Source: Nocardioides guangzhouensis | GTDB taxonomy: Bacteria > Actinomycetota > Actinomycetes > Propionibacteriales > Nocardioidaceae | NCBI RefSeq assembly: GCF_004519545.1 | Contig: NZ_SDKM01000006.1 | Location: 1 to 64,000, forward strand | DNA: 64,000 bases | Direction of reading: 5' to 3' | Part shown: piece by piece, positions 33,393 to 46,967 of the stretch | Layout: each line of letters opens with the position of its first letter | Numbering within the stretch: position 1 is the first letter of the stretch | Program-made: the position numbers and the translations under genes | The notes under the pieces: generated by a model | What the model saw: the letters and a program-made list of their open reading frames with translations, nothing else | Databases searched by the model: none | What the model was told of the DNA's origin: nothing

Positions 33393-34055
33393 TCACCCGG
33401 GACGGGCGACCACGACCACGTTCGACAGGTAGCGCTCGCCGTCCCAGTCCGCGCAGGTCACGAGCACGAGCTGGCCGGGCCCCCGCTGGCCGAACAGGGT
33501 CTCGGCACGCTCGGCCACCGTGCCTTTGGTGAAGGTGCGCACCGACCGGACGGCGTACCGGAGCTCGCCCCGCGTGGTGGTCACCGTGAGCCGGTCGCCC
33601 GGGCGGAGGTCGGCCAGGTGGTCGAGCGCGCCGCCCCCGGCGTGCACCGTGTGGCCGGCGACCAGGGCGGTGCCGCGCGGGTCGCCCGGGCGGGCGCCGG
33701 CCGCCCACCAGCCGAGCACCGCGGGGTTCGACGGTGGCACCAGCAGGCCGCCGACCGTCCGCACGGGGCGCACGTCGGCCCGGACGTCGAGCGACGGCAC
33801 CGTGATCTCGACCGGCGCTCCGGCGCGCGTGGGCGCGGGCGCCGCTGTGGGCAGAGCGTCGGGTACGTCGCCCGGGGCTGCCGGGCTTCCGCCCGCCGGG
33901 CCCGGCGCGTGCGCACGCGCCGGGCTGTCGGTCCCCCCGGCGCCCGGCTGGGCGTGCCAGGAGATCCCGCCGAGCACGACGAGCAGCAGGCCGAGGACCG
34001 CGAGCGGCCAGGGGTGGCGACCGGATCCGGTCGCCACCCCTGCCTTCGCCGTCAC
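33393..34055 (-). CDS. Class F-like sortase
   Basis: A membrane-anchored transpeptidase, 220 residues. One membrane helix (about 17-32, LAVLGLLLVVLGGISW) is followed by an Ala/Pro linker and the sortase barrel. The catalytic triad can be read as H135 or H138 in VAGHTVHAG, C201 in VLVTCADWD and R208 in GERYLSN. The domain is compact like class E/F sortases. ATG 34055 overlaps the stop codon of the preceding surface protein by four bases, so that protein is the obvious substrate candidate. Confidence 0.88.
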   Translation of the reverse strand: MTAKAGVATGSGRHPWPLAVLGLLLVVLGGISWHAQPGAGGTDSPARAHAPGPAGGSPAAPGDVPDALPTAAPAPTRAGAPVEITVPSLDVRADVRPVRTVGGLLVPPSNPAVLGWWAAGARPGDPRGTALVAGHTVHAGGGALDHLADLRPGDRLTVTTTRGELRYAVRSVRTFTKGTVAERAETLFGQRGPGQLVLVTCADWDGERYLSNVVVVARPG

Positions 34056-35647
34056 CTGCGCCGGGCCACCGCGACCTGGCGGCGCCGTACGAGCACGGCG
34101 CCACCGGCCAGGCCACCTCCGAGGGCGACCAGCAGCAGCGGCACGGACGATGCGGTCGTGTCGTCACTCCGGGCGAGCCCGGCCTCGACCACCGTCGGCA
34201 CCTCGGGGCCGGACGGGGGCGAGCCCTGCGGCGTCCCGGGACCGATCACCAGCGTGGGCGGCAGGCCCGGGCCCGAGGGGTACGCCGGCTCCGGCGGTCC
34301 GGCCGCCGGCGGGTGCTCCTCGGGGGGCGTCTGTCCCGGCGGGGTCTCCCCCGGCGGCTGCTCCCCCGGCGGCTGCTCCCCCGGCGGCTGCTCCCCCGGC
34401 GGCTGCTCCCCCGGCGGCTGCTCCCCCGGCGGCTGCTCCCCCGGCGGCTGCTCCCCCGGCGGCTGCTCCCCCGGCGGCTGCTCCCCCGGCGGCTGCTCCC
34501 CCGGCGGCTGCTCCCCCGGCGGCTGCTCCCCCGGCGGCTGCTCCCCCGGCGGCTGCTCCCCCGGCGGCTGCTCCCCCGGCGGCTGCTCCCCCGGCGGCTG
34601 CTCCCCCGGCGGCTGCTCCCCCGGCGGCTGCTCCCCCGGCGGCTGCTCCCCCGGCGGCTGCTCCCCCGGCGGCTGCTCCCCCGGCGGCTGCTCCCCCGGC
34701 GGCTGCTCCCCCGGCGGCTGCTCCCCCGGCGGCTGCTCCCCCGGCGGCTGCTCCCCCGGCGGCTGCTCCCCCGGCGGCTGCTCCCCCGGCGGCTGCTCCC
34801 CCGGCGGCTGCTCCCCCGGCGGCTGCTCCCCCGGCGGCTGCTCCCCCGGCGGCTGCTCCCCCGGCGGCTGCTCCCCCGGCGGCTGCTCCCCCGGCGGCTG
34901 CTCCCCCGGCGGCTGCTCGGGAGGCAGGTCGCAGCCGCGGACCCAGAAGACCTTCTGCTTGGTGTCGTTGCCGCGTGAGCGCGGCGTGTGCACGGTCAGC
35001 CGGACGTGGTAGCCCTGCTTCGGGTGAGCCGCGCCCGCGAACGAGAGCGTGTAGACCGCGACGGCGTCCAAGCCCGTGCCGGTGCCGGCACCGCTCTGCG
35101 GGTCACCGCCGACGAGCACCCGGGACGGCCCGTCGACGTCCATTCCCACGTCCCCGGTCGGCGCGTGCGGCGTGAACGCGACCTGCGAGACCACGTCGCT
35201 GCCGCCGTCGAAGCCGTACCACTCGACCTGGAACGTGCACCCGACGTGCGGGTGGTTGTCCGGGATCCGGTCGACCGTGCCTGCCGGCGCGATCTTCACG
35301 GTCCCGTTGTTGCCACCGCCGGCACCCTTGCCGCCGGGCGCCGTCGGGCGGCTGTGGGCCTTGCGGCCCTTCGGCGCCGGCCGGAACCGGTCGGCGTGCT
35401 GCCGGCCGGTCCGGCGCTGCTCGTCCTGCGTGCGGGCCTCCCGGCCCTTCCCCTTGGTCCCGGACCCGTTCCCGCGGCCCTTGTCCAGGCCGTGTGACCG
35501 TCCGTTCGTCGTGCTGCTGCGTTCGACGCCATGACCGTTCCCGTTGCCCGGGTCCGCGGCGGCGGGCAGGACCCCCGTCGACCACGATGCGACCGCGACC
35601 ACCGCGGTCAGGGCAAGCGAACGCCTGGCATCCAGATGCCGAAGCAT
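34052..35647 (-). CDS. Surface protein with GEQPP repeat array and C-terminal membrane anchor
   Basis: A 531-residue exported protein. The signal peptide covers residues 1-31 (SLALTAVVAVASWSTGVLPAA). A basic, Gly/Asn-rich stretch (about 32-110) precedes a beta-sandwich-like domain to about 240 containing two cysteines (DNHPHVGCTF, WVRGCDLPP). Residues about 243-433 are 38 identical GEQPP pentapeptides. A Pro-rich spacer leads to LARSDDTTASSVPLLLVALG, a hydrophobic helix, and RRRQVAVARRR. The tail has the layout of a sortase signal, with LARSD where an LAxTG/LPxTG motif is expected. Coupled to the sortase gene downstream. ATG 35647 follows GGGGG. Confidence 0.88.
   Translation of the reverse strand: MLRHLDARRSLALTAVVAVASWSTGVLPAAADPGNGNGHGVERSSTTNGRSHGLDKGRGNGSGTKGKGREARTQDEQRRTGRQHADRFRPAPKGRKAHSRPTAPGGKGAGGGNNGTVKIAPAGTVDRIPDNHPHVGCTFQVEWYGFDGGSDVVSQVAFTPHAPTGDVGMDVDGPSRVLVGGDPQSGAGTGTGLDAVAVYTLSFAGAAHPKQGYHVRLTVHTPRSRGNDTKQKVFWVRGCDLPPEQPPGEQPPGEQPPGEQPPGEQPPGEQPPGEQPPGEQPPGEQPPGEQPPGEQPPGEQPPGEQPPGEQPPGEQPPGEQPPGEQPPGEQPPGEQPPGEQPPGEQPPGEQPPGEQPPGEQPPGEQPPGEQPPGEQPPGEQPPGEQPPGEQPPGEQPPGEQPPGEQPPGEQPPGEQPPGEQPPGEQPPGEQPPGETPPGQTPPEEHPPAAGPPEPAYPSGPGLPPTLVIGPGTPQGSPPSGPEVPTVVEAGLARSDDTTASSVPLLLVALGGGLAGGAVLVRRRQVAVARRR
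34348..34918 (-). repeat. Perfect 15-bp tandem repeat, about 38 units
   Basis: The unit (plus strand CCCCGGCGGCTGCTC in one phase) is repeated without a visible substitution over about 570 bases and encodes GEQPP on the minus strand. As the unit is a multiple of three, every frame stays open across it. Confidence 0.95.
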
Positions 35648-35662
35648 GTGAAACCCCCGAAC

Positions 35663-35682
35663 GCGCCGGGCTGGCCCGGCGC
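35663..35682 (-). other. 5'-UTR hairpin of the surface-protein gene
   Basis: GCGCCGGGC-TG-GCCCGGCGC forms a perfect 9-bp stem about 16 bases upstream of ATG 35647, next to the Shine-Dalgarno sequence. It may modulate translation or mRNA stability; it does not match a riboswitch class I know. Confidence 0.5.
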
Positions 35683-35757
35683 TCTCGATCCCCCCGAGAA
35701 CCGCACTCTGCGGTGCAGACACCCTGCTCAACGACCGGTATCCGGATAGGTCACGGA

Positions 35758-38229
35758 TCAGGCGAGCGGCGCCTTCAACGACACCCGTACGTCGTGCCGG
35801 TCGCCGGCCACGTCGACCTGCCAGGCCCCGGAGTCCAGCCACGCCCGGGTGACCGGCTCGTCGTGCCGGACGTAGGCCAGCCCGACCGCGGCCCGGACCG
35901 TGGCGCCCCACGCGGCGCTGGTCACCTGCCCGGCCGGGGTCCCGTCCCGCAGCACCAGCTCGCCGCCCCAGAGCATCGGGTCCGGGTCGTCGAGCACGAA
36001 CGAGACCAGGCGGCGGCGCGGGCCGGGCGAGCGCAGCCGCTCGCGGTGCTCCTCGAGCGCCGCCCGCCCCAGGAACGGCTTGTCGCCGGAGAGCGCGGTC
36101 GCGAACACCAGGCCGGCCTCGACCGGGGTGTAGTCGGGGGTCAGGTCGCGGCCGAACGCCCGGTAGCCCTTCTCCAGGCGCAGCGCCTCGATCGCGTAGT
36201 AGCCCGCGTCCACCAGGCCGTGCTCACTCCCGGTCGCGTGCAGCAGCGCGTGCACGCCGGTGGCGAATTCGACCGGCACCATCAGCTCCCAGCCCAGCTC
36301 CCCGACGTACGTCATCCGCGTGGCCCGGACCGTGGCCGGGCCCAGCCCGAGCTCCCGGCTGGTCGCGAACGGGAACGCCTCCTCGGACAGGTCCGCGTCC
36401 GTGAGCGGCCGGAGCAGGTCGCGGGAGCGGGGACCCATCACGCCGAGCACGGCGAACTGGGTGGTCACGTCGCGGACCCGGGCGTCGCAGCCGTCGGGCA
36501 GGTGGCGGCGGATCAGGTCCTGGTCGCGGACCGTGGTCGCCGAGCTGCTGACCAGCAGGAACTCCTGCTCGGCCACGCGGGTGACGGTGAGGTCCGACTC
36601 GTAGGCGCCGCGGGCGTTCAGCAGCGGGGTGTAGACCGCGCGCCCGGGCTCGACGTCCACGTCGTTGGCGCACACCCACTGGAGTGCCTCGAGCGCGCCC
36701 GGTCCGTCGACGACGTACTTCGAGAACGAGGTCTGGTCGAACACCGCCACCGCCTCGCGGGTGGCGCGGTGCTCCGCCGCGACCCACGGCACCCACGACG
36801 GCCGGGTCCAGGAGTACGTCAGCTCGGTGGACTCCCCCGGCGGCGCGAAGAAGTTCGGCCGCTCCCAGCCCATCTTCGAGCCGAAGCTCGAGCCCGCAGC
36901 GGCCAGTCGGTCGTGCAGCGGAGAGCACCGGAACGGCCGGGCAGTGCTCATCTCCTGGTTCGGCCAGGGCACCGCGTAGTGCAGGCCGAGCACCTCGGAG
37001 ACCCGCGCCCGCAGCCAGCGGTTGTTGCCCTGGAAGGCGCCGAACCGGCGGATGTCCACCGCCACCAGGTCCGAGGTCGGCTCTCCCGCGACCACCCACT
37101 CCGCCAGGGCGCGTCCGGCGCCGCCCGCGGAGGCGATGCCCACCGAGTTGAAGCCGGCGCCGACGAAGTAGCCGCGCAGGCCGGGCGCCTCCCCCATCAC
37201 GAACTGGTTGTCCGGGGTGAACGACTCGGGGCCGTTGTAGAACTTCCGGATCCCGGTCTCCGCCAGCGCCGGCACCCGGCGTACGGCCTCGTCCATGAGC
37301 ACGGCGAAGTGGTCCCAGTCCTCCTCGAGCAGCTGGAACTCGAACGGGTACGGCAGGTCGTCGGGGCTGCGCCAGGGCTTGGCCTCGGGCTCGAAGCCGC
37401 CGACCACGAGGCCGCCGACCTCCTCCTTGAAGTAGGTGTAGCCGTCCGGGTCCCGCAGCAGCGGCAGGTCGGGGTGCACGCCGTCGATCCCCTCGGTGAC
37501 CACGTAGAAGTGCTCGGCGGAGTGCAGCGGCACGGTGACGCCGAGGGGGTCGGCGAGCGCCTTGGCCCACTGGCCGGCGCAGTTGACCACCACCTCGGCC
37601 TCGACGGTCCCGGCGTCGGTGCGCACGCCGGTCACCCGCCGGCCGAACGGGCCCTCCGTGACGTCGACGCCGAGCACCCGCACGCGCTCCACCACCCGGG
37701 CACCGCCGGCCCGGGCGCCGCGGGCCAGCGCCATGGTGAGGTCGGTCGGGTTGACCTTGCCGTCGCCGGGGAGCCAGAGCGCGCCGCGCAGGTCCTCGAC
37801 CTGCATGACCGGCCATGCCTCCAGCGCCTCCTCGGGGCTGAGCAGCGCGCACTCCATGTCGTACGCCGCCGCGTTGGCCGCCGTACGCCGGAGCTGGACC
37901 AGGCGGTCCTCGGTGCGGGCCACGATCACGCCGCCCACCTGCTTGTAGCCGGTCGCCTGCCCGGTCTCCTCCTCCAGGCGGGCGTAGAGCTCCGCGGAGT
38001 ACTGCACCAGCCGGGTGCCGCTCTCGGTCGCCCGCAGCGGGCCGACCAGCCCGGCGGCGTGCCAGGTGGTGCCGCACGACAGCGTGCCCTGCTCCAGCAG
38101 CAGCACGTCGGTCCAGCCGTTCCGGACGAGGTGGTAGGCGGTCGAGGTCCCGATCACGCCGCCGCCGATGATCACCGCGCGGGCCCGGTCGGGCAGGGTC
38201 ACGCCGGAGCGGGACGGCTCAGTCGTCAC
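35758..38229 (-). CDS. FAD-dependent oxidoreductase/GcvT fusion (dimethylglycine or sarcosine dehydrogenase-like)
   Basis: An 823-residue N-demethylase-type protein. Residues 1-410 are a D-amino-acid-oxidase-fold flavoprotein with GGGVIG (22-27) and TTWHAAGL, where His57 corresponds to the histidine that carries FAD covalently in dimethylglycine dehydrogenase. Residues about 430-815 form the folate-binding GcvT-like domain (WLRARVSEVLGLHY, SKMGWERPNFFAPP, RLEKGYRAFGRDL). Such fusions oxidise an N-methyl group and pass formaldehyde to tetrahydrofolate. GTG 38229 overlaps the preceding kinase-like gene by 11 bases. Last gene of the permease-kinase-oxidase unit. The substrate is not known. Confidence 0.9.
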   Translation of the reverse strand: MTTEPSRSGVTLPDRARAVIIGGGVIGTSTAYHLVRNGWTDVLLLEQGTLSCGTTWHAAGLVGPLRATESGTRLVQYSAELYARLEEETGQATGYKQVGGVIVARTEDRLVQLRRTAANAAAYDMECALLSPEEALEAWPVMQVEDLRGALWLPGDGKVNPTDLTMALARGARAGGARVVERVRVLGVDVTEGPFGRRVTGVRTDAGTVEAEVVVNCAGQWAKALADPLGVTVPLHSAEHFYVVTEGIDGVHPDLPLLRDPDGYTYFKEEVGGLVVGGFEPEAKPWRSPDDLPYPFEFQLLEEDWDHFAVLMDEAVRRVPALAETGIRKFYNGPESFTPDNQFVMGEAPGLRGYFVGAGFNSVGIASAGGAGRALAEWVVAGEPTSDLVAVDIRRFGAFQGNNRWLRARVSEVLGLHYAVPWPNQEMSTARPFRCSPLHDRLAAAGSSFGSKMGWERPNFFAPPGESTELTYSWTRPSWVPWVAAEHRATREAVAVFDQTSFSKYVVDGPGALEALQWVCANDVDVEPGRAVYTPLLNARGAYESDLTVTRVAEQEFLLVSSSATTVRDQDLIRRHLPDGCDARVRDVTTQFAVLGVMGPRSRDLLRPLTDADLSEEAFPFATSRELGLGPATVRATRMTYVGELGWELMVPVEFATGVHALLHATGSEHGLVDAGYYAIEALRLEKGYRAFGRDLTPDYTPVEAGLVFATALSGDKPFLGRAALEEHRERLRSPGPRRRLVSFVLDDPDPMLWGGELVLRDGTPAGQVTSAAWGATVRAAVGLAYVRHDEPVTRAWLDSGAWQVDVAGDRHDVRVSLKAPLA

Positions 38230-39133
38230 GCACGACCTCCTCGAGAAGTCGTTCGAAGCGGGGGGAGGTGAAGGTCGCGGCCGCCTTGTCGAACCGCTCC
38301 TGCCCCCACGAGTCGAAGTCGAAGTCGAGGCTGCTGGCCGAGGCCTGGATGGCGCCCCACAGCGACCAGCCGTACTCCGAGACCAGCGACTGGAGCCGGA
38401 CCCGGGCGCGCAGGTGACGCAGCGGCTCGCCGAAGTACGCCGCCACCAGGGCATCGACGGTGTCCTCGTCGAGGTCGCACTCGGTGGCGGTGTTGCCGAG
38501 CTCGAAGCAGGCGTCGTTGTTGCCGGAGTACTCGTAGTCGATCAGCCAGATCCGCTCGCCGTCGTCGACGAAGTTGCCCGCCAGCAGGTCGTTGTTGCAG
38601 GGCACGGTCGGCGTGGCGCGGACCGCGAGCGCCCGGCGTACCCGCTGGAAGGAGTCGTCGAAGCCGGCGTAACCGTCGAAGAGGCGGTAGCCGCGCTCCC
38701 GCACGGTCGCGAGGTACGTCGCCTGGCGCCGGAACATGTCGAAGTCGCCGGTGAAGCGCGGTCCCGCGTGGAGCCGGCGGCAGGCGTCCGCGGCCCGGGC
38801 CAGGACCGCGGGGTCGGAGAACGAGTCGTTGTCGAGGGTGGTGCCGGTGAGGAAGCCGATCACCAGGCAGCCGAGGTCCGGGTGGTAGCTCACCACCGGA
38901 GCCCCGACGCCCGCCTCGGCGGCCGCTCCCGTGTTGTCGTGCTCGGCGTCGCGGTCGATCCCCAGCAGGGCCGCGTCGCCCCGGAACACCCGGACCACGT
39001 AGTCGCCCTCCGGTGTGGTGACGTGGAGGTTCTGGTTGGTCAGTCCGCCGGGGAGCTCCGCGACCGCGCGGGAACGGCCCTGCAAGACCGGGATCCGGTC
39101 CAGCAGGGCCGCCACCTCGTCCGCGAGCGGCAC
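38219..39133 (-). CDS. Choline/ethanolamine kinase-like phosphotransferase
   Basis: A 304-residue protein of the choline kinase/aminoglycoside phosphotransferase superfamily. The nucleotide-binding N-lobe (LPGGLTNQNLHVTTPEGDYVVRVF in two parts) and the catalytic loop CNNDLLAGNFVDDGERIWLIDY, followed by EYSGNNDACFELGN, match LicA-type choline kinases; the loop begins CNND rather than the common HND. It probably phosphorylates an amino alcohol. Starts at GTG 39133, nine bases after the permease stop, and overlaps the FAD/GcvT gene. Confidence 0.88.
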   Translation of the reverse strand: MPLADEVAALLDRIPVLQGRSRAVAELPGGLTNQNLHVTTPEGDYVVRVFRGDAALLGIDRDAEHDNTGAAAEAGVGAPVVSYHPDLGCLVIGFLTGTTLDNDSFSDPAVLARAADACRRLHAGPRFTGDFDMFRRQATYLATVRERGYRLFDGYAGFDDSFQRVRRALAVRATPTVPCNNDLLAGNFVDDGERIWLIDYEYSGNNDACFELGNTATECDLDEDTVDALVAAYFGEPLRHLRARVRLQSLVSEYGWSLWGAIQASASSLDFDFDSWGQERFDKAAATFTSPRFERLLEEVVRDD

Positions 39134-39142
39134 CCGTCGCCG

Positions 39143-40747
39143 TCAGTCGCCGAACGCCTCGACGACGGCCTCGTCGATCGTGTGCTTCGGGCCGGTGAAC
39201 CACTTCTTCGCCGACACGTTCCACCAGATGACCAGCAGGAGCAGGGCACCCAGCGTCACGATCGGCGCGTAGTTCACGAACTTCCACTCGAACTCGTCGC
39301 GGAACGGGTTCGCCGCCGGCGTGGTCGGCATCATCAGGTAGACCGACACGATCAGGATCTCGGCGACCGCGATCGGGTTCATCCACTTGTACTTCGCGCC
39401 GTTGTTCCACGAGCCGACGTCGAACTTGTCGCCGTGCCGCCAGCGCAGCCAGATCGGGATCGCGAACGCCAGGTAGAGGCCGATCACCGCGATCGAGGTG
39501 ACCGCGTAGAACGCCAGCGGCACCGGCGTGCCGTTGACGTCGACCTCGATCAGCGCCGGCAGGCTCAGGACCGCCGAGGCGACCCCGACCATGACCACGG
39601 CGTTGGCCGGGACCCGGGACGCGGTGAGCTTCTGCAGCGTCTTCGAGCCCGGGATCGCGCCGTCCCGGCTGAAAGCGAACGTCATCCGCGACGCCGACGT
39701 CATGCAGGACGTGGCGCAGAAGAACTGCGCGGACGCCGAGATGAACAGCACGAACGTCGCCCAGTTCTTCCCCAGCGCCTCGAGGAAGATCGGCTGGACG
39801 CCCAGGCCGGCCAGCGCGTTGTCCGGCTGCCCGTCCGCGGTGTCCGGGATCGCGAACACCACGCACAGCAGCAGGACGTAGCCGCCGAGCACGGAGTAGA
39901 GGATCGAGCGCCAGATGCCCTTGGCCGCCGCCGTCGACGCCGCGCCGGTCTCCTCGGACAGGTGGGCCGAGGCGTCGAAGCCGGTGATGGTGTACTGCGT
40001 GAGCAGGAAGCCGAACGGCACGATCGCGAACCAGAACGCGACGCTGGTGGTGCTGCCGTCGGCGTACCCGGAGTTGTTGAAGCGCTCCGTGAACACGTAG
40101 CTGAAGCTCTGGTGCTGGTCGGGGACCAGGATCAGCACGACCACGATGGCCGCGGCACCCACGACGTGCCACCACACCGACACGTTGTTCATGATCGCCA
40201 TGAGGTGGCCGCTGAAGATGTTGAGCACCGAGACCAGCGCCAGGACGATCACGAAGATGATGAACACCCGGGTCAGCGAGTAGTCCGCCGCGAACGACTC
40301 GGAGTAGGTGCTGATGGTCAGGTCGATGAACGTGGCGCACCCGTAGGACACACCGGCCGTCACCGCGACCAGGCCGATCAGGTTCAGCCAGCCGGTGAAG
40401 AAGCCGGCCGCCGGACCGCCGAGCTTGGAGGCCCACCAGTAGATCCCGCCCGAGGTGGGGTACGCCGAGACCAGCTCGGACATGGTGAAGCCGATGATCA
40501 GGATGAACAGGCCGAGGATCGGCCACGACCACGAGATCGAGATCGGGCCGCCGTTGTTGAAGCCGGCACCGAAGTTGGTGAAGCAGCCGGCGAGGATGGA
40601 GATGATCGAGAACGAGATAGCGAAGTTGGAGAATCCGGACCACGACCGGTTGAGCTCCTGCTTGTACCCGAGCTTGGCAAGGTGCTTCTCGTCGTCGGTG
40701 AGGTGCGGGACTTCGTGCTCTTCTACGTGTTCGTGTCCTTCGGGCAT
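39143..40747 (-). CDS. APC-family amino acid/amine permease
   Basis: A 534-residue transporter with about twelve hydrophobic segments and the APC pattern FSNFAISFSIISILAG near residue 35, SELVSAYPTSGGIYWWASKL near 80 and TQYTITGFDASAHLSEETG near 260. It resembles the GABA/choline/ethanolamine branch. ATG 40747 follows GAGAAGGTG. It opens the minus-strand operon with the kinase-like and FAD/GcvT genes and should import the compound degraded by this locus. Both termini are hydrophilic; the N-terminus is His/Glu-rich. Confidence 0.92.
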   Translation of the reverse strand: MPEGHEHVEEHEVPHLTDDEKHLAKLGYKQELNRSWSGFSNFAISFSIISILAGCFTNFGAGFNNGGPISISWSWPILGLFILIIGFTMSELVSAYPTSGGIYWWASKLGGPAAGFFTGWLNLIGLVAVTAGVSYGCATFIDLTISTYSESFAADYSLTRVFIIFVIVLALVSVLNIFSGHLMAIMNNVSVWWHVVGAAAIVVVLILVPDQHQSFSYVFTERFNNSGYADGSTTSVAFWFAIVPFGFLLTQYTITGFDASAHLSEETGAASTAAAKGIWRSILYSVLGGYVLLLCVVFAIPDTADGQPDNALAGLGVQPIFLEALGKNWATFVLFISASAQFFCATSCMTSASRMTFAFSRDGAIPGSKTLQKLTASRVPANAVVMVGVASAVLSLPALIEVDVNGTPVPLAFYAVTSIAVIGLYLAFAIPIWLRWRHGDKFDVGSWNNGAKYKWMNPIAVAEILIVSVYLMMPTTPAANPFRDEFEWKFVNYAPIVTLGALLLLVIWWNVSAKKWFTGPKHTIDEAVVEAFGD

Positions 40748-40785
40748 GTGGCACCTTCTCGGGATGCGGAGCAGCGATTGGTTGG

Positions 40786-40815
40786 AGGCTAGACCCGCCC
40801 GGATCGGCTTGTGAA
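40786..40815 (-). promoter_or_regulatory. Candidate promoter of the permease operon
   Basis: On the minus strand TTCACA (40815-40810), 18 bases, TAGCCT (40791-40786). The region up to the FadR-type gene also contains TGGT-N10-ACCA (about 40833-40850), a possible GntR-type half-site pair, and TTGACA at 40849-40854 on the plus strand. Confidence 0.35.
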
Positions 40816-40875
40816 GATGCGCGCCGAAATTGGTATGAACTCCGACCATTGACAGCCCAACGGGGTCGCCCGAGG

Positions 40876-41625
40876 ATGACTCACGTGATCCCTTCCCCGG
40901 ACGACGCGCACGACCTCACCCGCGCCGTGCTCCGTCCCGCCCGGGGCTACCACGCGTTCGAGGCGTGCGTGGAACAGCTGGCGACCACGATCCGGCTGGG
41001 GGTCTACCCGCGCGGGACGACCTTGCCGCCCGAGCGTGAGCTGGCCACCCGGCTCAACGTGTCGCGCTCGACGCTGCGCGAGGCGATGGCGGCACTGCGC
41101 CAGGCCGGACTGGTCGAGACCAGGCGCGGCCGTGGCGGGGGCACCGTGGTCACGCTCAAGCCGCGCACGCCGTCCGCCCGGGCCGCCTCCCGGCTCACCG
41201 CGGCCCAGCGCCAGGACTGGCTGGACGCCCTGGAGTTCCGCCGCATCGTCGAGCCGGGCGCCGCCGAGCTCGCTGCCGGCCAGCGCCTCGGCGACACCGG
41301 TCGGGCCCAGCTCGAAGCGGCCCACGCGGACGTGGTGGCAGCACGCAAGCCCGCGCAGCACCGGCAGGCCGACTCCCGGTTCCACCTCACCGTGGCCACG
41401 CTCACCGGGTCGCCGCGGGTGATCGAGGCGGTGACCTCGGTCCAGGCGACCCTGCACGAGATGCTGCTGGCGATCCCGGTCCTGGAGGCGAACATCGGAC
41501 ACTCGGACCGGCAGCACGCCGCGCTGGTCCGGGCCATCCTGGCCGGCGACCAGGAACGCGCCGGGCGCGTGATGACCGAGCACTGCGACGACACCGCCGC
41601 GCTGCTGCGCGGCCTGGTGGGCTGA
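40876..41625 (+). CDS. FadR-subfamily GntR regulator
   Basis: A 249-residue regulator: an N-terminal winged helix (LPPERELATRLNVSRSTLREAM near residue 47) and an all-helical FCD domain with metal-binding residues (LEFRRIVEPGAAELAA, HRQADSRFHLTVATL, HSDRQHAALVRAI). Divergently placed between the two operons of the amine locus and probably controls both. ATG 40876 was chosen with CGAGG close upstream; TTG 40849 and GTG 40885 are alternatives. Confidence 0.9.
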   Translation: MTHVIPSPDDAHDLTRAVLRPARGYHAFEACVEQLATTIRLGVYPRGTTLPPERELATRLNVSRSTLREAMAALRQAGLVETRRGRGGGTVVTLKPRTPSARAASRLTAAQRQDWLDALEFRRIVEPGAAELAAGQRLGDTGRAQLEAAHADVVAARKPAQHRQADSRFHLTVATLTGSPRVIEAVTSVQATLHEMLLAIPVLEANIGHSDRQHAALVRAILAGDQERAGRVMTEHCDDTAALLRGLVG

Positions 41626-41667
41626 CCCACCGACCGACCGACCGGACAGGCGACAGAGGGAGACACC

Positions 41668-43035
41668 GTGGCACCGCGCAACGACCGGCACCTGACCAGG
41701 GAGGAGCTCGTCTCCCTCATAGAGACGGGTGAGATCGACACCGTCATCGTCGCCTTCACCGACATGCAGGGCCGGCTCCAGGGCAAGCGGCTGCACGGGA
41801 GGTACTTCGTCGACGTGGTGCTGCACCACGGCACCGAGGGCTGCAACTACCTCCTCGCCGTCGACGTGGAGATGAACACTGTCGACGGCTACGCGATCTC
41901 CTCGTGGGACAAGGGCTACGGCGACATGGAGTTCGTCCTCGACGAGGACACCATCCGGCTGCTCACCCACCTCCCCGGCACCGCGATGGTGCAGTGCGAC
42001 CTGGTCTGGCCCGACCACTCCCCCGTGCTGCAGTCGCCCCGCGCCATGCTCCAGCAACAGCTCGACCGGGTGGCCGCGCGCGACTGGGTGGCGCTGGCCG
42101 GCACCGAGCTGGAGTTCATCGCCTTCGACACGTCGTACGAGGACGCCTCGGACCTCGGCTACCGCGACCTCACGCCGGTCAACCAGTACAACGTCGACTA
42201 CTCGATCCTCGGCACCTCGCGAGCCGAGCCGCTGCTGCGCGACATCCGCAACCACATGTACGCGGCCGGGATGGACGTGGAGGGCGCCAAGGGCGAGTGC
42301 AACTTCGGCCAGCACGAGGTCGGGTTCCTCTACAACGAGGCACTGGTGACCGCGGACAACCACGCGGTCTACAAGAACGCCGCCAAGGAGATCGCCGCCC
42401 AGCAGGGCCGCTCGATCACGTTCATGGCGAAGTACAACCAGCGCGAGGGCAGCTCCTGCCACATCCACCTGTCGCTGCGCGGCCGCGACGGCGACCTGGT
42501 GTTCTGGGACGACGACGCGGGCGAGCGGACTCCGCTCTACGACCAGTTCGTGGCGGGTGTGCTGGCGACCACCGCCGACTTCACGCTCCTCTACGCCCCG
42601 AACATCAACTCCTACAAGCGGTTCGCGGACGGCTCGTTCGCACCGACCACCATCGCCTGGGGGCTCGACAACCGCACCTGCGCGGTGCGGCTGGTCGGCC
42701 GGGGGGCCGGGGCCCGCATGGAGAACCGGGTGCCCGGGGCGGACGTCAACCCCTACCTCGCGCTCACCGCCATGCTGGCCGGCGGCCTGCACGGCATCGA
42801 GAACGAGCTTCCGCTCGAGGACGAGCTGGTCGGCAACGCCTACCACTCCGGCAAGGCCAAGGTGCCGCACACGATGCGCGAGGCACGTGACCGGTTCCAC
42901 TCCTCGGAGGTGGCCCGGGCGGCCCTCGGTGACGACGTGGTCGACCACTACGTCAACATGGCCGACGTCGAGCTCGCGGCGTACGACTCCACGGTCACCG
43001 ACTGGGAGCTGCGCCGCGGCTTCGAGCGACTCTGA
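41668..43035 (+). CDS. Glutamine synthetase-like gamma-glutamyl-amine ligase
   Basis: A 455-residue GS-fold ligase that should join glutamate to an amine with ATP. Residues expected for the metal and glutamate sites are seen in AGTELEFIAFD, GECNFGQHEVGFLY, REGSSCHIHLSL (the nucleotide/metal His), NSYKRFADGSFAPT and RMENRVPGADVNPYLAL. It is not the housekeeping GlnA: there is no adenylylation-site Tyr context and the neighbourhood is catabolic. PuuA and the Streptomyces GlnA3/GlnA4 enzymes are the closest known types. GTG 41668 follows GAGGGAG. Confidence 0.9.
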   Translation: MAPRNDRHLTREELVSLIETGEIDTVIVAFTDMQGRLQGKRLHGRYFVDVVLHHGTEGCNYLLAVDVEMNTVDGYAISSWDKGYGDMEFVLDEDTIRLLTHLPGTAMVQCDLVWPDHSPVLQSPRAMLQQQLDRVAARDWVALAGTELEFIAFDTSYEDASDLGYRDLTPVNQYNVDYSILGTSRAEPLLRDIRNHMYAAGMDVEGAKGECNFGQHEVGFLYNEALVTADNHAVYKNAAKEIAAQQGRSITFMAKYNQREGSSCHIHLSLRGRDGDLVFWDDDAGERTPLYDQFVAGVLATTADFTLLYAPNINSYKRFADGSFAPTTIAWGLDNRTCAVRLVGRGAGARMENRVPGADVNPYLALTAMLAGGLHGIENELPLEDELVGNAYHSGKAKVPHTMREARDRFHSSEVARAALGDDVVDHYVNMADVELAAYDSTVTDWELRRGFERL

Positions 43036-43072
43036 CCCACCCTCCCCCGGCACCTTCCCTGGAGCACCGTCC

Positions 43073-44431
43073 ATGACCGACACGTACACCGTGATCAACC
43101 CGGCGACGGCCACCCCCGTCACCGACGTCCCGCTCGCGGACGTCGCCGCCACCGACGCCGCGATCGAGGCCGCGCACGCAGCGTTCCTGCGCTGGCGCAC
43201 GATGGCCCCCGGCGACCGGGCCAATGTCCTGCGCCGGTTCGCCGCCGTGGTCGACGCGCACGTCGACGAGCTGGCCGAGCTCGAGGTCCGCAACGCCGGC
43301 CACACCTGGGGCAACGCCAGCTGGGAGGCCGGCAACGTCCGGGACTGCCTCAACTACTACTCCGCCGCGCCCGAGCGGCTCTTCGGCCGCCAGATCCCGG
43401 TTGCGGGCGGCGTCGACATCACCTTCCACGAGCCGCTCGGCGTGGTCGGCGTGATCGTGCCGTGGAACTTCCCGATGCCGATCGCCGGCTGGGGCTTCGC
43501 GCCCGCGCTGGCCGCCGGCAACGCGGTCGTGCTCAAGCCGGCCGAGCTGACCCCGCTCACCGCGGTCCGGATCGGCGAGCTCGCGCTCGAGGCCGGGCTC
43601 CCCGAGCACGTGCTCACGATCATCCCCGGCAAGGGCTCGGTGGTCGGCGAGCGCTTCGTCACCCACCCGCTGGTCCGCAAGGTCTGCTTCACCGGGTCCA
43701 CCGAGGTCGGGAAGCGGATCATGGCCGGCTGCGCCGAGCAGGTGAAGCGGGTGACCCTGGAGCTCGGCGGCAAGTCCGCGAACATCGTGTTCGCCGACGC
43801 CGACCTGGCTGCGGCGGCCGCCAGCGCGCCGTACGCCGTCTTCGACAACGCCGGCCAGGACTGCTGCGCGCGCTCGCGGATCCTCGTCGAGCGCTCGGCG
43901 TACGACGAGTTCCTGTCGCTGATGGAGCCGGCGGTGACCGGGATGCGGGTGCTGGACCCGTCCGACGAGTCCAGCGAGATGGGGCCGCTGATCTCGGCGC
44001 AGCAGAAGGACGCCGTGGAGGGCTACCTCGCCGACGTCGACGTGGCCTTCGCGGGCTCGACGCCGGGGGGCGACGGCTTCTGGGTGCCGCCGAGCGTGGT
44101 GCTCTCCGAGGACCCGCAGGAGCGGATCTGGCGCGAGGAGGTGTTCGGCCCGGTGGTCGCGGTGATGCCGTTCGACGACGAGGCGGACGCGGTGGCGCGC
44201 GCCAACGACACGGAGTACGGCCTCTCGGGGTCGATCTTCACCTCCGACCTCGGTCGCGGGCTCCGGGTGGCCCGCGCCGTCGAGGCCGGGAACCTCAGCG
44301 TGAACTCACACTCGTCGGTGCGCTACTGGACGCCGTTCGGCGGCTACAAGCAGTCCGGCCTCGGCCGCGAGCTCGGCCCGGACGCGCCGAACGCGTTCAC
44401 CGAGGAGAAGAACGTCTACATCGCCCACTGA
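43073..44431 (+). CDS. Aldehyde dehydrogenase
   Basis: NAD(P)-dependent aldehyde oxidation, 452 residues. The cofactor and catalytic motifs are PWNFPMPIAGWGFAPALAAG, KPAELTPLTA, FTGSTEVGK, the general base Glu in LELGGKSANI and the nucleophile in NAGQDCCARSR. The protein is shorter than many family members (about 480-500) at the N-terminus, which opens with YTVINPAT. Within the locus it would oxidise the aldehyde produced from the glutamylated amino alcohol, the PuuC role. ATG 43073 follows CTGGAG; 37 bases separate it from the ligase gene. Confidence 0.93.
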   Translation: MTDTYTVINPATATPVTDVPLADVAATDAAIEAAHAAFLRWRTMAPGDRANVLRRFAAVVDAHVDELAELEVRNAGHTWGNASWEAGNVRDCLNYYSAAPERLFGRQIPVAGGVDITFHEPLGVVGVIVPWNFPMPIAGWGFAPALAAGNAVVLKPAELTPLTAVRIGELALEAGLPEHVLTIIPGKGSVVGERFVTHPLVRKVCFTGSTEVGKRIMAGCAEQVKRVTLELGGKSANIVFADADLAAAAASAPYAVFDNAGQDCCARSRILVERSAYDEFLSLMEPAVTGMRVLDPSDESSEMGPLISAQQKDAVEGYLADVDVAFAGSTPGGDGFWVPPSVVLSEDPQERIWREEVFGPVVAVMPFDDEADAVARANDTEYGLSGSIFTSDLGRGLRVARAVEAGNLSVNSHSSVRYWTPFGGYKQSGLGRELGPDAPNAFTEEKNVYIAH

Positions 44432-44440
44432 CCCTTCGCC

Positions 44441-44478
44441 GCTGGTTGAGGAGGTCGCGCTGCGACCGTCTCGAAACC
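44441..44478. repeat. Second copy of the dispersed palindromic repeat
   Basis: Begins GCTGGTTGAGGAG and ends GTCTCGAAACC, the same ends as the element near 25.4 kb, with GGTCGC-GCT-GCGACC between them. It lies inside an operon, between the aldehyde dehydrogenase stop and the short-chain dehydrogenase start. Confidence 0.7.
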
Positions 44479-44502
44479 GAGGCAACCAGAAAGGACCCGC
44501 AC

Positions 44503-45282
44503 ATGGCAGGACGCATCCAGGGCAAGGTCGCCGTGGTCACCGGGGGCTGCTCCGGCATCGGGCTGGCGACCGTGCAGCGGTTCGTCGAGGAGGGCGCGAA
44601 GGTCGTCATCGGCGACATCGACGAGGAGCGCGGGCATGCGCTGGTCGGCCAGCTCGGCGGCACCGACATCGCGACGTTCGTGCAGGTCGACGTCACCGAC
44701 AAGGAGCAGGTCGAGGCGCTGTTCCGCACCGCGAAGGACACCTACGGCTCGGTCGACATCGCCTTCAACAACGCCGGCATCTCGCCGCCGGAGGACGACT
44801 CGATCCTCGACACCGACCTCGACGCGTGGCGGCGGGTGCAGGAGGTCAACCTCACCAGCGTCTACCTGTGCTGCAAGGCGGCCCTCCCCCACATGCTCGA
44901 GCAGCGCAGCGGGTCGATCATCAACACCGCATCGTTCGTCGCCGTGATGGGCGCGGCCACCTCGCAGATCTCCTACTCCGCCTCCAAGGGCGGCGTGTTG
45001 TCGATGAGTCGCGAGCTCGGTGTCCAGTTCGCGCGCGACGGCGTGCGGGTCAACGCGCTCTGCCCGGGCCCGGTGAACACGCCGCTGCTCCAGGAGCTGT
45101 TCGCCAAGGACCCCGAGCGGGCTGCCCGCCGGCTCGTGCACGTGCCCATGGGCCGGTTCGCGGAGCCGGAGGAGATGGCCAACGCCGTGCTGTTCCTCGC
45201 CTCCGACGAGTCCAGCTTCATCACCGCCAACACCTTCCTGGTCGACGGCGGCATCTCCGGCGCCTACGTCACACCGCTGTGA
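44503..45282 (+). CDS. Short-chain dehydrogenase/reductase
   Basis: A 259-residue classical SDR with TGGCSGIG for NAD binding, NNAGIS, the catalytic Ser in NTASFVAVMG, and YSASKGG holding the Tyr-x3-Lys pair. Automatic annotation would call it 3-oxoacyl-ACP reductase, but its place between an aldehyde dehydrogenase and a gamma-glutamyl hydrolase suggests oxidation of the alcohol group of a glutamylated amino alcohol. ATG 44503 follows AGAAAGGA. Its stop overlaps the next start (GTGA). Confidence 0.92.
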   Translation: MAGRIQGKVAVVTGGCSGIGLATVQRFVEEGAKVVIGDIDEERGHALVGQLGGTDIATFVQVDVTDKEQVEALFRTAKDTYGSVDIAFNNAGISPPEDDSILDTDLDAWRRVQEVNLTSVYLCCKAALPHMLEQRSGSIINTASFVAVMGAATSQISYSASKGGVLSMSRELGVQFARDGVRVNALCPGPVNTPLLQELFAKDPERAARRLVHVPMGRFAEPEEMANAVLFLASDESSFITANTFLVDGGISGAYVTPL

Positions 45283-46010
45283 GCGCTCCCGTCATCGGCC
45301 TGACCACCTACCGCGAGGACGCGGCCTGGGGGGTCTGGCAGCAGACCGCCGACGTGCTGCCGCACGCCTACGCGCTGGCCGTCGAGGCCACCGGTGGGGT
45401 GCCGGTGCTGCTGCCCCCGGTGACCCAGGTCGGTGCCGCGGACGCCCTGATGGCGCGGCTGGACGGGCTGGTGATCAGCGGCGGCGCCGACGTCGACCCC
45501 GACCGGTACGGCGCCGAGCCGCACCCGCAGACCAGCAACTGGCGGCCGGACCGGGACGCGTGGGAGGTGGCGCTGCTCGACGCGGCCGAGGCCGCCGGGC
45601 TGCCGGTGCTCGGCGTCTGCCGGGGCATGCAGCTCATGGCCGTCCACGCGGGCGGGCACCTGCACCAGCACACGCCCGACCTGGTGGACCACGAGGAGCA
45701 CAGCCCCGGCGGCGACGTGTTCGGCGATATCGAGGTGGACACGGTCCCCGGGACCCGCCTGTCCGCGCTGGTCGGCGACCGGCTGACCGTGAGCTGCCAC
45801 CACCACCAGTCGGTGGACCGGTTCCCCGGGTTCGTCGCGTCCGCGCGGGCCGCGGACGGCACCCTGGAGGCGATGGAGGCCCCGGGTGACCGATTCTGCC
45901 TGGCCGTGCAGTGGCACCCGGAGACCGCCGCCGACGTGGGGCTGCTGGCCGGGCTCGTGCGGGCGGCGTCCGAGTTCGCGGCCGCCCGGCGCGCACCCGC
46001 CGACGCCTGA
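45279..46010 (+). CDS. Gamma-glutamyl-GABA hydrolase-like class I amidotransferase (PuuD type)
   Basis: A 243-residue class I glutamine-amidotransferase-fold hydrolase. The nucleophilic Cys is in LGVCRGMQLM and the catalytic His and Glu in VQWHPETAAD. GLVISGGADVDPDRYG is typical of the PuuD family, which cleaves gamma-glutamyl amides to release glutamate and the processed amine. Coupled to the dehydrogenase by a 4-base GTGA overlap, it closes the plus-strand operon and recycles the glutamate used by the ligase. Confidence 0.9.
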   Translation: MSAPVIGLTTYREDAAWGVWQQTADVLPHAYALAVEATGGVPVLLPPVTQVGAADALMARLDGLVISGGADVDPDRYGAEPHPQTSNWRPDRDAWEVALLDAAEAAGLPVLGVCRGMQLMAVHAGGHLHQHTPDLVDHEEHSPGGDVFGDIEVDTVPGTRLSALVGDRLTVSCHHHQSVDRFPGFVASARAADGTLEAMEAPGDRFCLAVQWHPETAADVGLLAGLVRAASEFAAARRAPADA

Positions 46011-46022
46011 CAGACTGCGGGC

Positions 46023-46967
46023 ATGACCGACGAGCAGGACGTCCTCGGCGCGCCGTACACGACGGAGATGATCGAGCTCCCCGACGACGCCGAGGGGCCG
46101 GTCCACGCGACCCTGGTCCGGCGCCGCGCCGAGCAGCCCACCTCCCGTGCGGTGCTGCACGTGCACGGGTTCGCGGACTACTTCTTCCAGACGTCGTACG
46201 CCGAGTGGTGGAACGAGCGTGGCTACGACTTCTACGCGATCGACCTGCGGAAGTACGGCCGCTCCCTCGGCGAGCATCAGACGCCCAACTACGTCGCCGA
46301 CCTGCGGGAGTACTTCCCGGAGCTGGACGAGGCCTGGGACCGGGTCACCGGCCGCGACGAGCACGACCACGTCGTCCTCAGTGCGCACTCGACGGGCGGG
46401 CTGACCCTCCCGCTGTGGGCCGCCGACCGCAAGCCCGACCTGGCCGGGATGGTGCTGAACTCACCGTGGTTCGACCTGCAGGGGTCCCTGTTCAACCGCA
46501 CCGTGGGCACCGAGATCCTCAAGCAGGTCGGCAAGCGGCAGCCCATGCGCATCATCCCGCGCACGGTCTCCGGGCTCTACGCTCGCAGCCTGCACCGCGA
46601 CCACGAGGGCGAGTTCGACTTCGACGTCGCGTGGAAGCCGATCGAGAGCTGGCCCGTGTACGCCGGGTGGCTGCGCGCGATCCGGCAGGGTCATGCGGAC
46701 CTGCACCGCGGCATCGAGGTCGGCTGCCCGGTGCTGGTGCTCACCTCGGGCGCGACCGCGTGGCCCAAGGAGATGGGCGAGGACGTGCACGGGCACGACA
46801 TCGTGCTGGAGGTCGACCAGATCCGCCGCTGGGCGCCGTCGCTGGGGCGGCACGTCACGCTGGTGTCGATCGACGGCGCCCGTCACGACGTCGTGCTCTC
46901 CCGCGAGCCGGTGCGCTCCCGCGTCTACGACGAGATCGCCCGCTGGCACGCGGCGTACGTCGGCTGA
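46023..46967 (+). CDS. Alpha/beta hydrolase
   Basis: A 314-residue serine hydrolase. HVHGFADYFFQ forms the oxyanion-hole region, the nucleophile elbow is SAHSTGG (A-H-S-T-G in place of GxSxG), and the catalytic His lies in IDGARHDVVLS near the C-terminus. It resembles monoacylglycerol-lipase/lysophospholipase-like enzymes. ATG 46023 stands six bases after CAGACT, so it may have its own leaderless promoter despite being only 12 bases from the puuD-like stop. Substrate unknown. Confidence 0.88.
   Translation: MTDEQDVLGAPYTTEMIELPDDAEGPVHATLVRRRAEQPTSRAVLHVHGFADYFFQTSYAEWWNERGYDFYAIDLRKYGRSLGEHQTPNYVADLREYFPELDEAWDRVTGRDEHDHVVLSAHSTGGLTLPLWAADRKPDLAGMVLNSPWFDLQGSLFNRTVGTEILKQVGKRQPMRIIPRTVSGLYARSLHRDHEGEFDFDVAWKPIESWPVYAGWLRAIRQGHADLHRGIEVGCPVLVLTSGATAWPKEMGEDVHGHDIVLEVDQIRRWAPSLGRHVTLVSIDGARHDVVLSREPVRSRVYDEIARWHAAYVG

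Follow-up and report, generated by a model that had tools for sequence, protein, structure and literature searches.

The closest described counterpart of the genes analysed here is the GlnA4 cluster of Streptomyces (SCO1610-SCO1615), which, in the passages of PMC6529630 (mBio 2019) devoted to it, comprises glnA4 with a GntR-type repressor gene next to it, and genes for a short-chain dehydrogenase/reductase (SDR), an aldehyde dehydrogenase (ALDH), a glutamine amidotransferase and a putative transporter of ethanolamine. According to the proposal made there, ethanolamine is converted to gamma-glutamylethanolamide, the corresponding aldehyde and gamma-glutamylglycine, which yields glycine and glutamate; a figure legend of the same paper reports the S. 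coelicolor GlnA4 as ethanolamine-specific. We analysed a 64,000-nucleotide stretch of Nocardioides guangzhouensis (contig NZ_SDKM01000006.1, positions 1 to 64,000; hereafter the window) in which a comparable gene set includes two further genes, encoding a kinase and a fusion of a flavin adenine dinucleotide (FAD)-dependent oxidoreductase with GcvT domains (FAD/GcvT). Two divergent operons flank a FadR-type regulator gene: the minus-strand operon holds FAD/GcvT, kinase and permease, and the plus-strand operon FadR, ligase, ALDH, SDR and Peptidase C26 (C26):

35758-38202, minus strand: FAD/GcvT fusion, dimethylglycine dehydrogenase (DMGDH)-like, candidate tetrahydrofolate (THF)-coupled N-demethylase; Pfam DAO, FAO_M, GCV_T and GCV_T_C; start at GTG 38202 or GTG 38229
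38219-39133, minus strand: kinase of the choline/ethanolamine-kinase family; Pfam Choline_kinase 76.5 bits (cut-off 29), also APH 61.2 bits
39143-40747, minus strand: APC permease; AA_permease_2; TIGR00907 over its full length, 291 bits, under the cut-off of 598
40831-40848, no strand: likely operator TGGTATGA-AC-TCCGACCA, a conserved palindrome between the divergent operons
40849-41625, plus strand: FadR-type regulator; Pfam GntR and FCD; start at TTG 40849 or ATG 40876
41668-43035, plus strand: GlnA4-like ligase, candidate gamma-glutamylethanolamide synthetase; Gln-synt_C, residues listed for GlnA4, published cluster order
43073-44431, plus strand: ALDH; Aldedh 512 bits
44503-45282, plus strand: SDR alcohol dehydrogenase; NF004713 493 bits (cut-off 404), adh_short; nearest PDB entry 4wec
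45279-46010, plus strand: Peptidase C26/PuuD-like gamma-glutamyl hydrolase; Peptidase_C26 201.8 bits; Cys/His motifs

The positions and families of all eight genes, as given in an earlier reading of this DNA (the original prediction), were confirmed by open reading frames (ORFs), Pfam and NCBIfam. Like the GlnA4 cluster, the window brings together a glutamine synthetase (GS)-like ligase, an ALDH, an SDR, a hydrolase of the glutamine amidotransferase type, a GntR-type regulator and a permease. The ligase carries the metal, glutamate and ATP residues of GlnA4 (E147, E149, E210, E217, H265, H267, R318, F324, E352, R354) and Phe at the GlnA4 E327-flap position, all matched by motif and numbering offset and not by direct alignment to SCO1613. 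Judged by its gene content, the ethanolamine-utilisation part (six of the eight genes) is of the already known GlnA4 type, a match that supports the predicted gamma-glutamylation route for an amino alcohol. The statement that no described pathway has exactly this set stood for the kinase and FAD/GcvT, and fell for the other six genes, including the alcohol-oxidising SDR step, which is not new since an SDR belongs to the published cluster (PMC6529630); the undescribed part therefore shrinks to the kinase and FAD/GcvT. Neither is named in the published legend of orf1-orf5, and 'phosphotransferase' gives 0 hits in the PMC6529630 text. Two loci of large genomes with the published GlnA4 gene order (L217, L218) likewise hold no kinase or FAD/GcvT within the 17 kb examined. 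The Puu (putrescine) pathway of E. coli follows the same glutamylate-oxidise-hydrolyse logic and shares the C26 hydrolase fold, whereas the window has an SDR in the place of PuuB. Assignment of the whole set to Puu was ruled out, the equivalog scores being far under the cut-offs: PuuA (NF045547) 181.6 against 650; PuuC (NF009847; model search accession NF007352) 334 against 850; and PuuD (NF008471) 84 against 266.

The main finding is that the kinase and FAD/GcvT form a unit linked to the GlnA4 route, which is well supported by genome comparisons. The two genes are separated by 16-17 bases or overlap, depending on the start codon taken. The ligase was found at E <= 1e-100 in 27 of the 58 relatives searched, and 14 same-genus loci are of the window type (one of them, L031, is cut by a contig end, leaving 13 informative clusters). 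Nine of these 13 hold all eight genes and the other four lack exactly the kinase and FAD/GcvT, that is, both genes are present in nine clusters, neither in four and one alone in 0; in two of the nine full clusters (L040, L041) the permease gene lies on the FadR strand. Among the best 80 kinase loci of one scan of named genomes (more exist, and several stretches are short), FAD/GcvT is at most 0.7 kb from the kinase in 79, the exception being L165, whose stretch ends 0.5 kb past the kinase. The ligase is inside the fetched stretch in 32 of these 80 loci, and 48 FAD/GcvT-kinase loci are without it there; for Mycolicibacterium and Nonomuraea, a pair with no ligase cluster alongside is the usual case. 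Some loci repeat one genome (e.g. L041/L131, L176/L212) and the species counts are uncorrected for kinship. The joint conservation that the original prediction had proposed to check was thus found in the 13 same-genus clusters and in the best 80 kinase loci. Being gained and lost together, adjoining without the ligase cluster and always including the kinase as partner, the pair belongs together and not to the end of the glutamyl route.

The same association was found in an even sample of 394 genomes of the class (thresholds: kinase E <= 1e-30, FAD/GcvT E <= 1e-150, ligase E <= 1e-150). The kinase was present in 72 genomes, FAD/GcvT in 77 and both in 63, against 14.1 expected. The ligase, detected in 181 of the 394, was present in 68 of the 72 kinase genomes (33.1 expected) and in 61 of the 63 genomes with both genes (28.9 expected; counts uncorrected for kinship). 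FAD/GcvT lies within 6 kb in 53 of the 75 kinase matches (52 genomes, 28 genera, 10 families), and this adjacency is undercounted, since only the two best FAD/GcvT candidates per genome were scored. Small genomes (1.2-2.2 Mb; fetched loci of 40-50% GC) follow the same rule of a pair with a ligase, the ligase cluster lying elsewhere in the genome (L215); in these streamlined genomes the annotated neighbours of the pair are uninformative (DnaB, UbiA), and in high-GC DNA the survey of neighbours by raw ORFs is blurred by shadow ORFs.

A palindrome with 8-bp arms, TGGT(A/C)TGA-AC-TCA(G/T)ACCA, is conserved in an alignment of 36 divergent permease/FadR promoters. Allowing up to two mismatches, the 2.91 Mb of loci examined contain 46 sites, of which 42 lie at FadR/permease starts, one at the kinase start of L110 and three elsewhere; three Markov resamples gave 3, 0 and 3 sites. 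The sole perfect match to the pattern genome-wide is that at window position 40831. The palindrome was not found in L040 and L041, the loci with the permease on the FadR strand, and the divergent promoter contains none of the classical FadR half-site patterns. From these promoters, one FadR-type regulator is likely to control both operons via the putative operator, in agreement with the single regulon originally predicted. Elsewhere, 35 of the best 80 kinase loci have a GntR-UTRA gene no more than 4 kb from the kinase, and 43 of 177 GGTCTAGACC-like sites (up to one mismatch; 2.84 Mb), which we take to resemble DasR-type operators, are at kinase, FAD/GcvT or permease starts; in the resample comparison the real total was 172, against 85-99 in the resamples. 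In L096, L101 and L112 a GGTCTAGACC site at the kinase/ligase promoter is accompanied by one at the permease or FAD/GcvT promoter. A motif common to mycobacterial kinase and permease/ligase promoters was also sought, and was discarded as the comparison was unconvincing. The sequences themselves show which families the genes belong to, that the pair behaves as a unit, that it is nested within genomes carrying the ligase, and that operators are shared.

On the evidence of its predicted model (pLDDT 95.3), the kinase is a member of the choline/ethanolamine-kinase family, its substrate being predicted: structural ranks 1-35 are all choline/ethanolamine kinases (Z 34.9 to 22.1), followed at rank 36 by a homoserine kinase (Z 21.8). 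It shares with human choline kinase (CK) and pneumococcal LicA the fold and the C-terminal Trp/Trp motif; Trp256, Trp259 and Gln263 (W..W..Q) align with human choline kinase alpha, and both Trp residues are invariant among 22 kinase relatives. It differs from those enzymes in its catabolic gene context and in its PCNND stretch (presumably the Brenner motif), which has Asn where the motif has His. The nearest NCBIfam model is GntI (182 bits, under the cut-off).

The best PDB matches of FAD/GcvT are rat and human DMGDH and the dimethylglycine oxidase (DMGO) AgDMGO, with which it shares the DAO-FAO_M-GCV_T-GCV_T_C order, the His/Tyr dyad, the position of the covalent-FAD His and the GcvT Asp. Counted along the alignment, H233 and Y259 correspond to the catalytic dyad His225 and Tyr259 of AgDMGO and are invariant in 19 sequences, and D539 aligns with the AgDMGO Asp replaced by Ala in entry 3gsi. 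The role of this dyad in DMGDH-type enzymes, and their use of anionic substrates, are described in the relevant passages of PMC5082570. The window enzyme differs from the DMGDH/DMGO enzymes in having a kinase partner and in two residues, Gly271 and Ala359, where DMGDH and AgDMGO have Pro/Ser and Ile/Thr, respectively. Both Gly271 and Ala359 are present in 53 of the 53 kinase-linked rows tabulated and in three of the 17 rows without kinase, all three on Sinorhizobium or Aminobacter plasmids (the table is without short rows, L090 and L129, and its 33-row 'hi' group includes L112, whose kinase is just over 6 kb away). In a tree of 73 FAD/GcvT rows, three short rows left out, the kinase-linkage label changes five times (shuffled mean 16.9), and the kinase-linked rows are spread over several clades (that of the window enzyme, one of Nonomuraea and small genomes, a third, and rhizobial clades), indicating that the same kind of kinase partners different FAD/GcvT types. 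The N. guangzhouensis genome encodes two further FAD/GcvT paralogues, 46% (C112:100739-103180) and 36% (C79:216294-218549) identical, with no kinase in the fetched neighbourhood.

The nearest kinase-less FAD/GcvT clade (the sister clade, approximately 59-60% identity) was examined in six plasmid loci. Genes for 2-aminoethylphosphonate metabolism lie within 12 kb of FAD/GcvT in five of them (S. meliloti, Aminobacter, 'Roseateles' XES5, Ensifer canadensis and E. adhaerens), the side differing between S. meliloti and Ensifer; in 'Roseateles' XES5 these are followed by an APC permease, GS, GMC oxidoreductase, N-formylglutamate amidohydrolase and ALDH. 2-Aminoethylphosphonate is the phosphonate analogue of phosphoethanolamine. 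The sister clade beside phosphonate genes, taken with the kinase pairing, suggests that FAD/GcvT acts on N-methylated 2-aminoethyl compounds ending in a phosphate or phosphonate, the kinase adding the phosphate in the case of alcohols. The described PbfB/C/D enzymes (PMC10590968, iScience 2023) are comparable: they are FAD enzymes, belong to phosphonate clusters and oxidise a 2-aminoethyl phospho compound with an N-methyl group, N-methyl-2-aminoethylphosphonate, the reported product being phosphonoacetaldehyde. They differ in that FAD/GcvT enzymes would yield a primary amine and methylene-THF, and in that the window enzyme, with its GCV_T and GCV_T_C, departs from the single-domain PF01266 form without GcvT that is ascribed to the Pbf enzymes on the strength of the PMC10590968 text, which contains neither 'GcvT' nor 'tetrahydrofolate'. 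A further observation from Aminobacter (L114, 3373-8201) is a ring-hydroxylating dioxygenase and a reductase with a second FAD/GcvT gene adjoining, which looks like a quaternary-amine demethylation set.

The reading that we favour, giving it slightly less than an even chance, is a regulon for methylated ethanolamines in which the kinase-demethylase pair feeds the GlnA4 route. The permease would import N-methyl- or N,N-dimethylethanolamine, and the kinase would phosphorylate the hydroxyl to give N-methyl-phosphoethanolamine. FAD/GcvT would then oxidise this phospho-amine at its N-methyl group and transfer that group to THF as methylene-THF, leaving phosphoethanolamine, from which a phosphatase encoded outside the window would free ethanolamine. 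The GlnA4-like ligase, SDR, ALDH and C26 would convert ethanolamine to gamma-glutamyl-ethanolamide, -acetaldehyde and -glycine, and then to glycine and glutamate. Here we infer the substrate, the phosphorylation before demethylation and the dephosphorylation; the N-methylated substrate of the original prediction is supported as possible. A wider principle, which we put forward with more reserve, is that of phosphate priming: the phosphate added by the kinase would replace the carboxylate anchor of DMGDH-type substrates, the kinase-less sister clade would demethylate N-methyl-2-aminoethylphosphonate, and the module would feed ethanolamine breakdown of the GlnA4 type in actinomycetes at large, including streamlined ones.

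Several observations weigh against this reading. The window holds no phosphatase gene. A haloacid dehalogenase (HAD) gene adjoins the kinase, divergently oriented, in 14 of the 31 mycobacterial loci (L156, L166, L170, L185 and others), and in 18 of the 18 homologues listed DFNGTL replaces the usual DxDGT, which makes phosphatase activity doubtful; this HAD was therefore discarded as proof of dephosphorylation. The HisN-like phosphatase of an Arthrobacter sp. U41 plasmid was likewise discarded as support, since its locus is of another type, in which kinases accompany a Zn hydrolase or M20 and FAD/GcvT is absent. In the 394 genomes, 22 of the 75 kinase matches have no FAD/GcvT within 6 kb, and the ligase counts are uncorrected for kinship, as stated above. 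In Agrobacterium, R. leguminosarum, Acidisoma and Pantoea the kinase match is accompanied by another kinase and a Zn hydrolase, FAD/GcvT being absent. As for the phosphonate clue, Sinorhizobium sp. RAC02 (L240) has no phosphonate genes within 9 kb of the sister FAD/GcvT, and those of Aminobacter lie at a distance of 10 kb. The different kinase-partnered FAD/GcvT types may differ in substrate, and the whole reading is drawn from genes.

The original prediction had placed glutamylation first: the ligase would glutamylate N-methylethanolamine, the SDR, ALDH and hydrolase would lead to sarcosine, and FAD/GcvT would demethylate sarcosine to glycine, the kinase being a side branch. We consider this order quite unlikely. 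DMGDH as the closest solved structure to FAD/GcvT and the presence of all the genes within one regulon speak for it; FAD/GcvT, however, tracks the kinase (79 of the best 80 kinase loci) and much less the ligase (32 of those 80), the residues at 271 and 359 are unlike those of DMGDH/DMGO throughout the kinase-linked rows, and the legend in PMC6529630 has the S. coelicolor GlnA4 specific for ethanolamine. Given the partnership of FAD/GcvT with the kinase, a kinase followed by a demethylase upstream of the ligase fits better. The same two steps might act on another N-methylated hydroxy-amine, be it a larger amino alcohol or a betaine-derived one, in which case they would not have to end in ethanolamine. 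The varied transporters beside the pair (APC permease, choline/betaine-type ABC and, in L105, polyamine-type ABC) and GntI as the nearest model of the kinase are consistent with this, but ethanolamine is indicated both by the operators shared with the ligase and by the fact that the pair is nested within genomes that carry GlnA4, and we regard such a substrate as unlikely.

Both remaining explanations appear improbable. If the order were reversed, FAD/GcvT would demethylate the free amine and the kinase would phosphorylate ethanolamine for phospholipid, in competition with the ligase. This would suit a choline/ethanolamine kinase, but no cytidylyltransferase was found by the pair among the annotated neighbours, and the anionic substrates of DMGDH-type enzymes (PMC5082570, in the passages on these enzymes) argue against a free amine. 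Alternatively, the two genes would have unrelated housekeeping roles, choline salvage and the oxidation of dimethylglycine/sarcosine from glycine betaine, and merely be co-induced. Such roles are established elsewhere for both families; the pairing, however, is found repeatedly among distantly related lineages and involves more than one FAD/GcvT clade.

In our favoured reading, in which the pair feeds the GlnA4 route, the new part is a feeder module on a known pathway, phospho-primed demethylation being the bold part, and the pair probably lets the cell also consume methylated ethanolamines. These compounds derive from phospholipid head groups and their bacterial routes are poorly mapped. A pathway joining such a kinase to a DMGDH-like enzyme was not found in the open-licence literature, which does not show its absence from print. 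Should folate-coupled demethylation primed by a kinase prove true, many actinomycetes would have a link from the remains of membrane lipids to their one-carbon and nitrogen metabolism. A widespread pair whose annotations go no further than 'phosphotransferase' and 'FAD-dependent oxidoreductase' would then gain a function, and a new N-methyl-aminoethylphosphonate demethylase would be predicted.

The pair also occurs on alphaproteobacterial plasmids. Those of Rhizobium rosettiformans and Shinella carry an ABC transporter, the kinase and FAD/GcvT in a row, the Rhizobium ABC permease scoring over the choline-transporter cut-off (411.5 against 363), and a Ruegeria plasmid operon consists of a DeoR gene, FAD/GcvT and the kinase. 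Four proteobacterial loci (L234, L235, L236, L237) share a recurring operon of a Zn-dependent hydrolase, a phosphotransferase and a choline-kinase-like protein. The Arthrobacter sp. U41 plasmid locus (L118, 1140-12925) contains GS, C26, ALDH and SDR genes along with the HisN-like phosphatase, a choline-kinase-like gene, a sodium:solute symporter and an amidase, and may represent a further system for amino alcohols.

Two further features lie beside the operons. An alpha/beta hydrolase gene (46023-46967, plus strand; Hydrolase_4) follows the C26 gene, is present in eight of the 14 same-genus loci and was missing from the gene set of the original prediction. At 34335-34918 a 15-base unit is repeated in 38.9 copies (99% matching), encoding the PPGEQ repeats of what is predicted to be a surface-type protein (minus-strand ORF 34052-35911).

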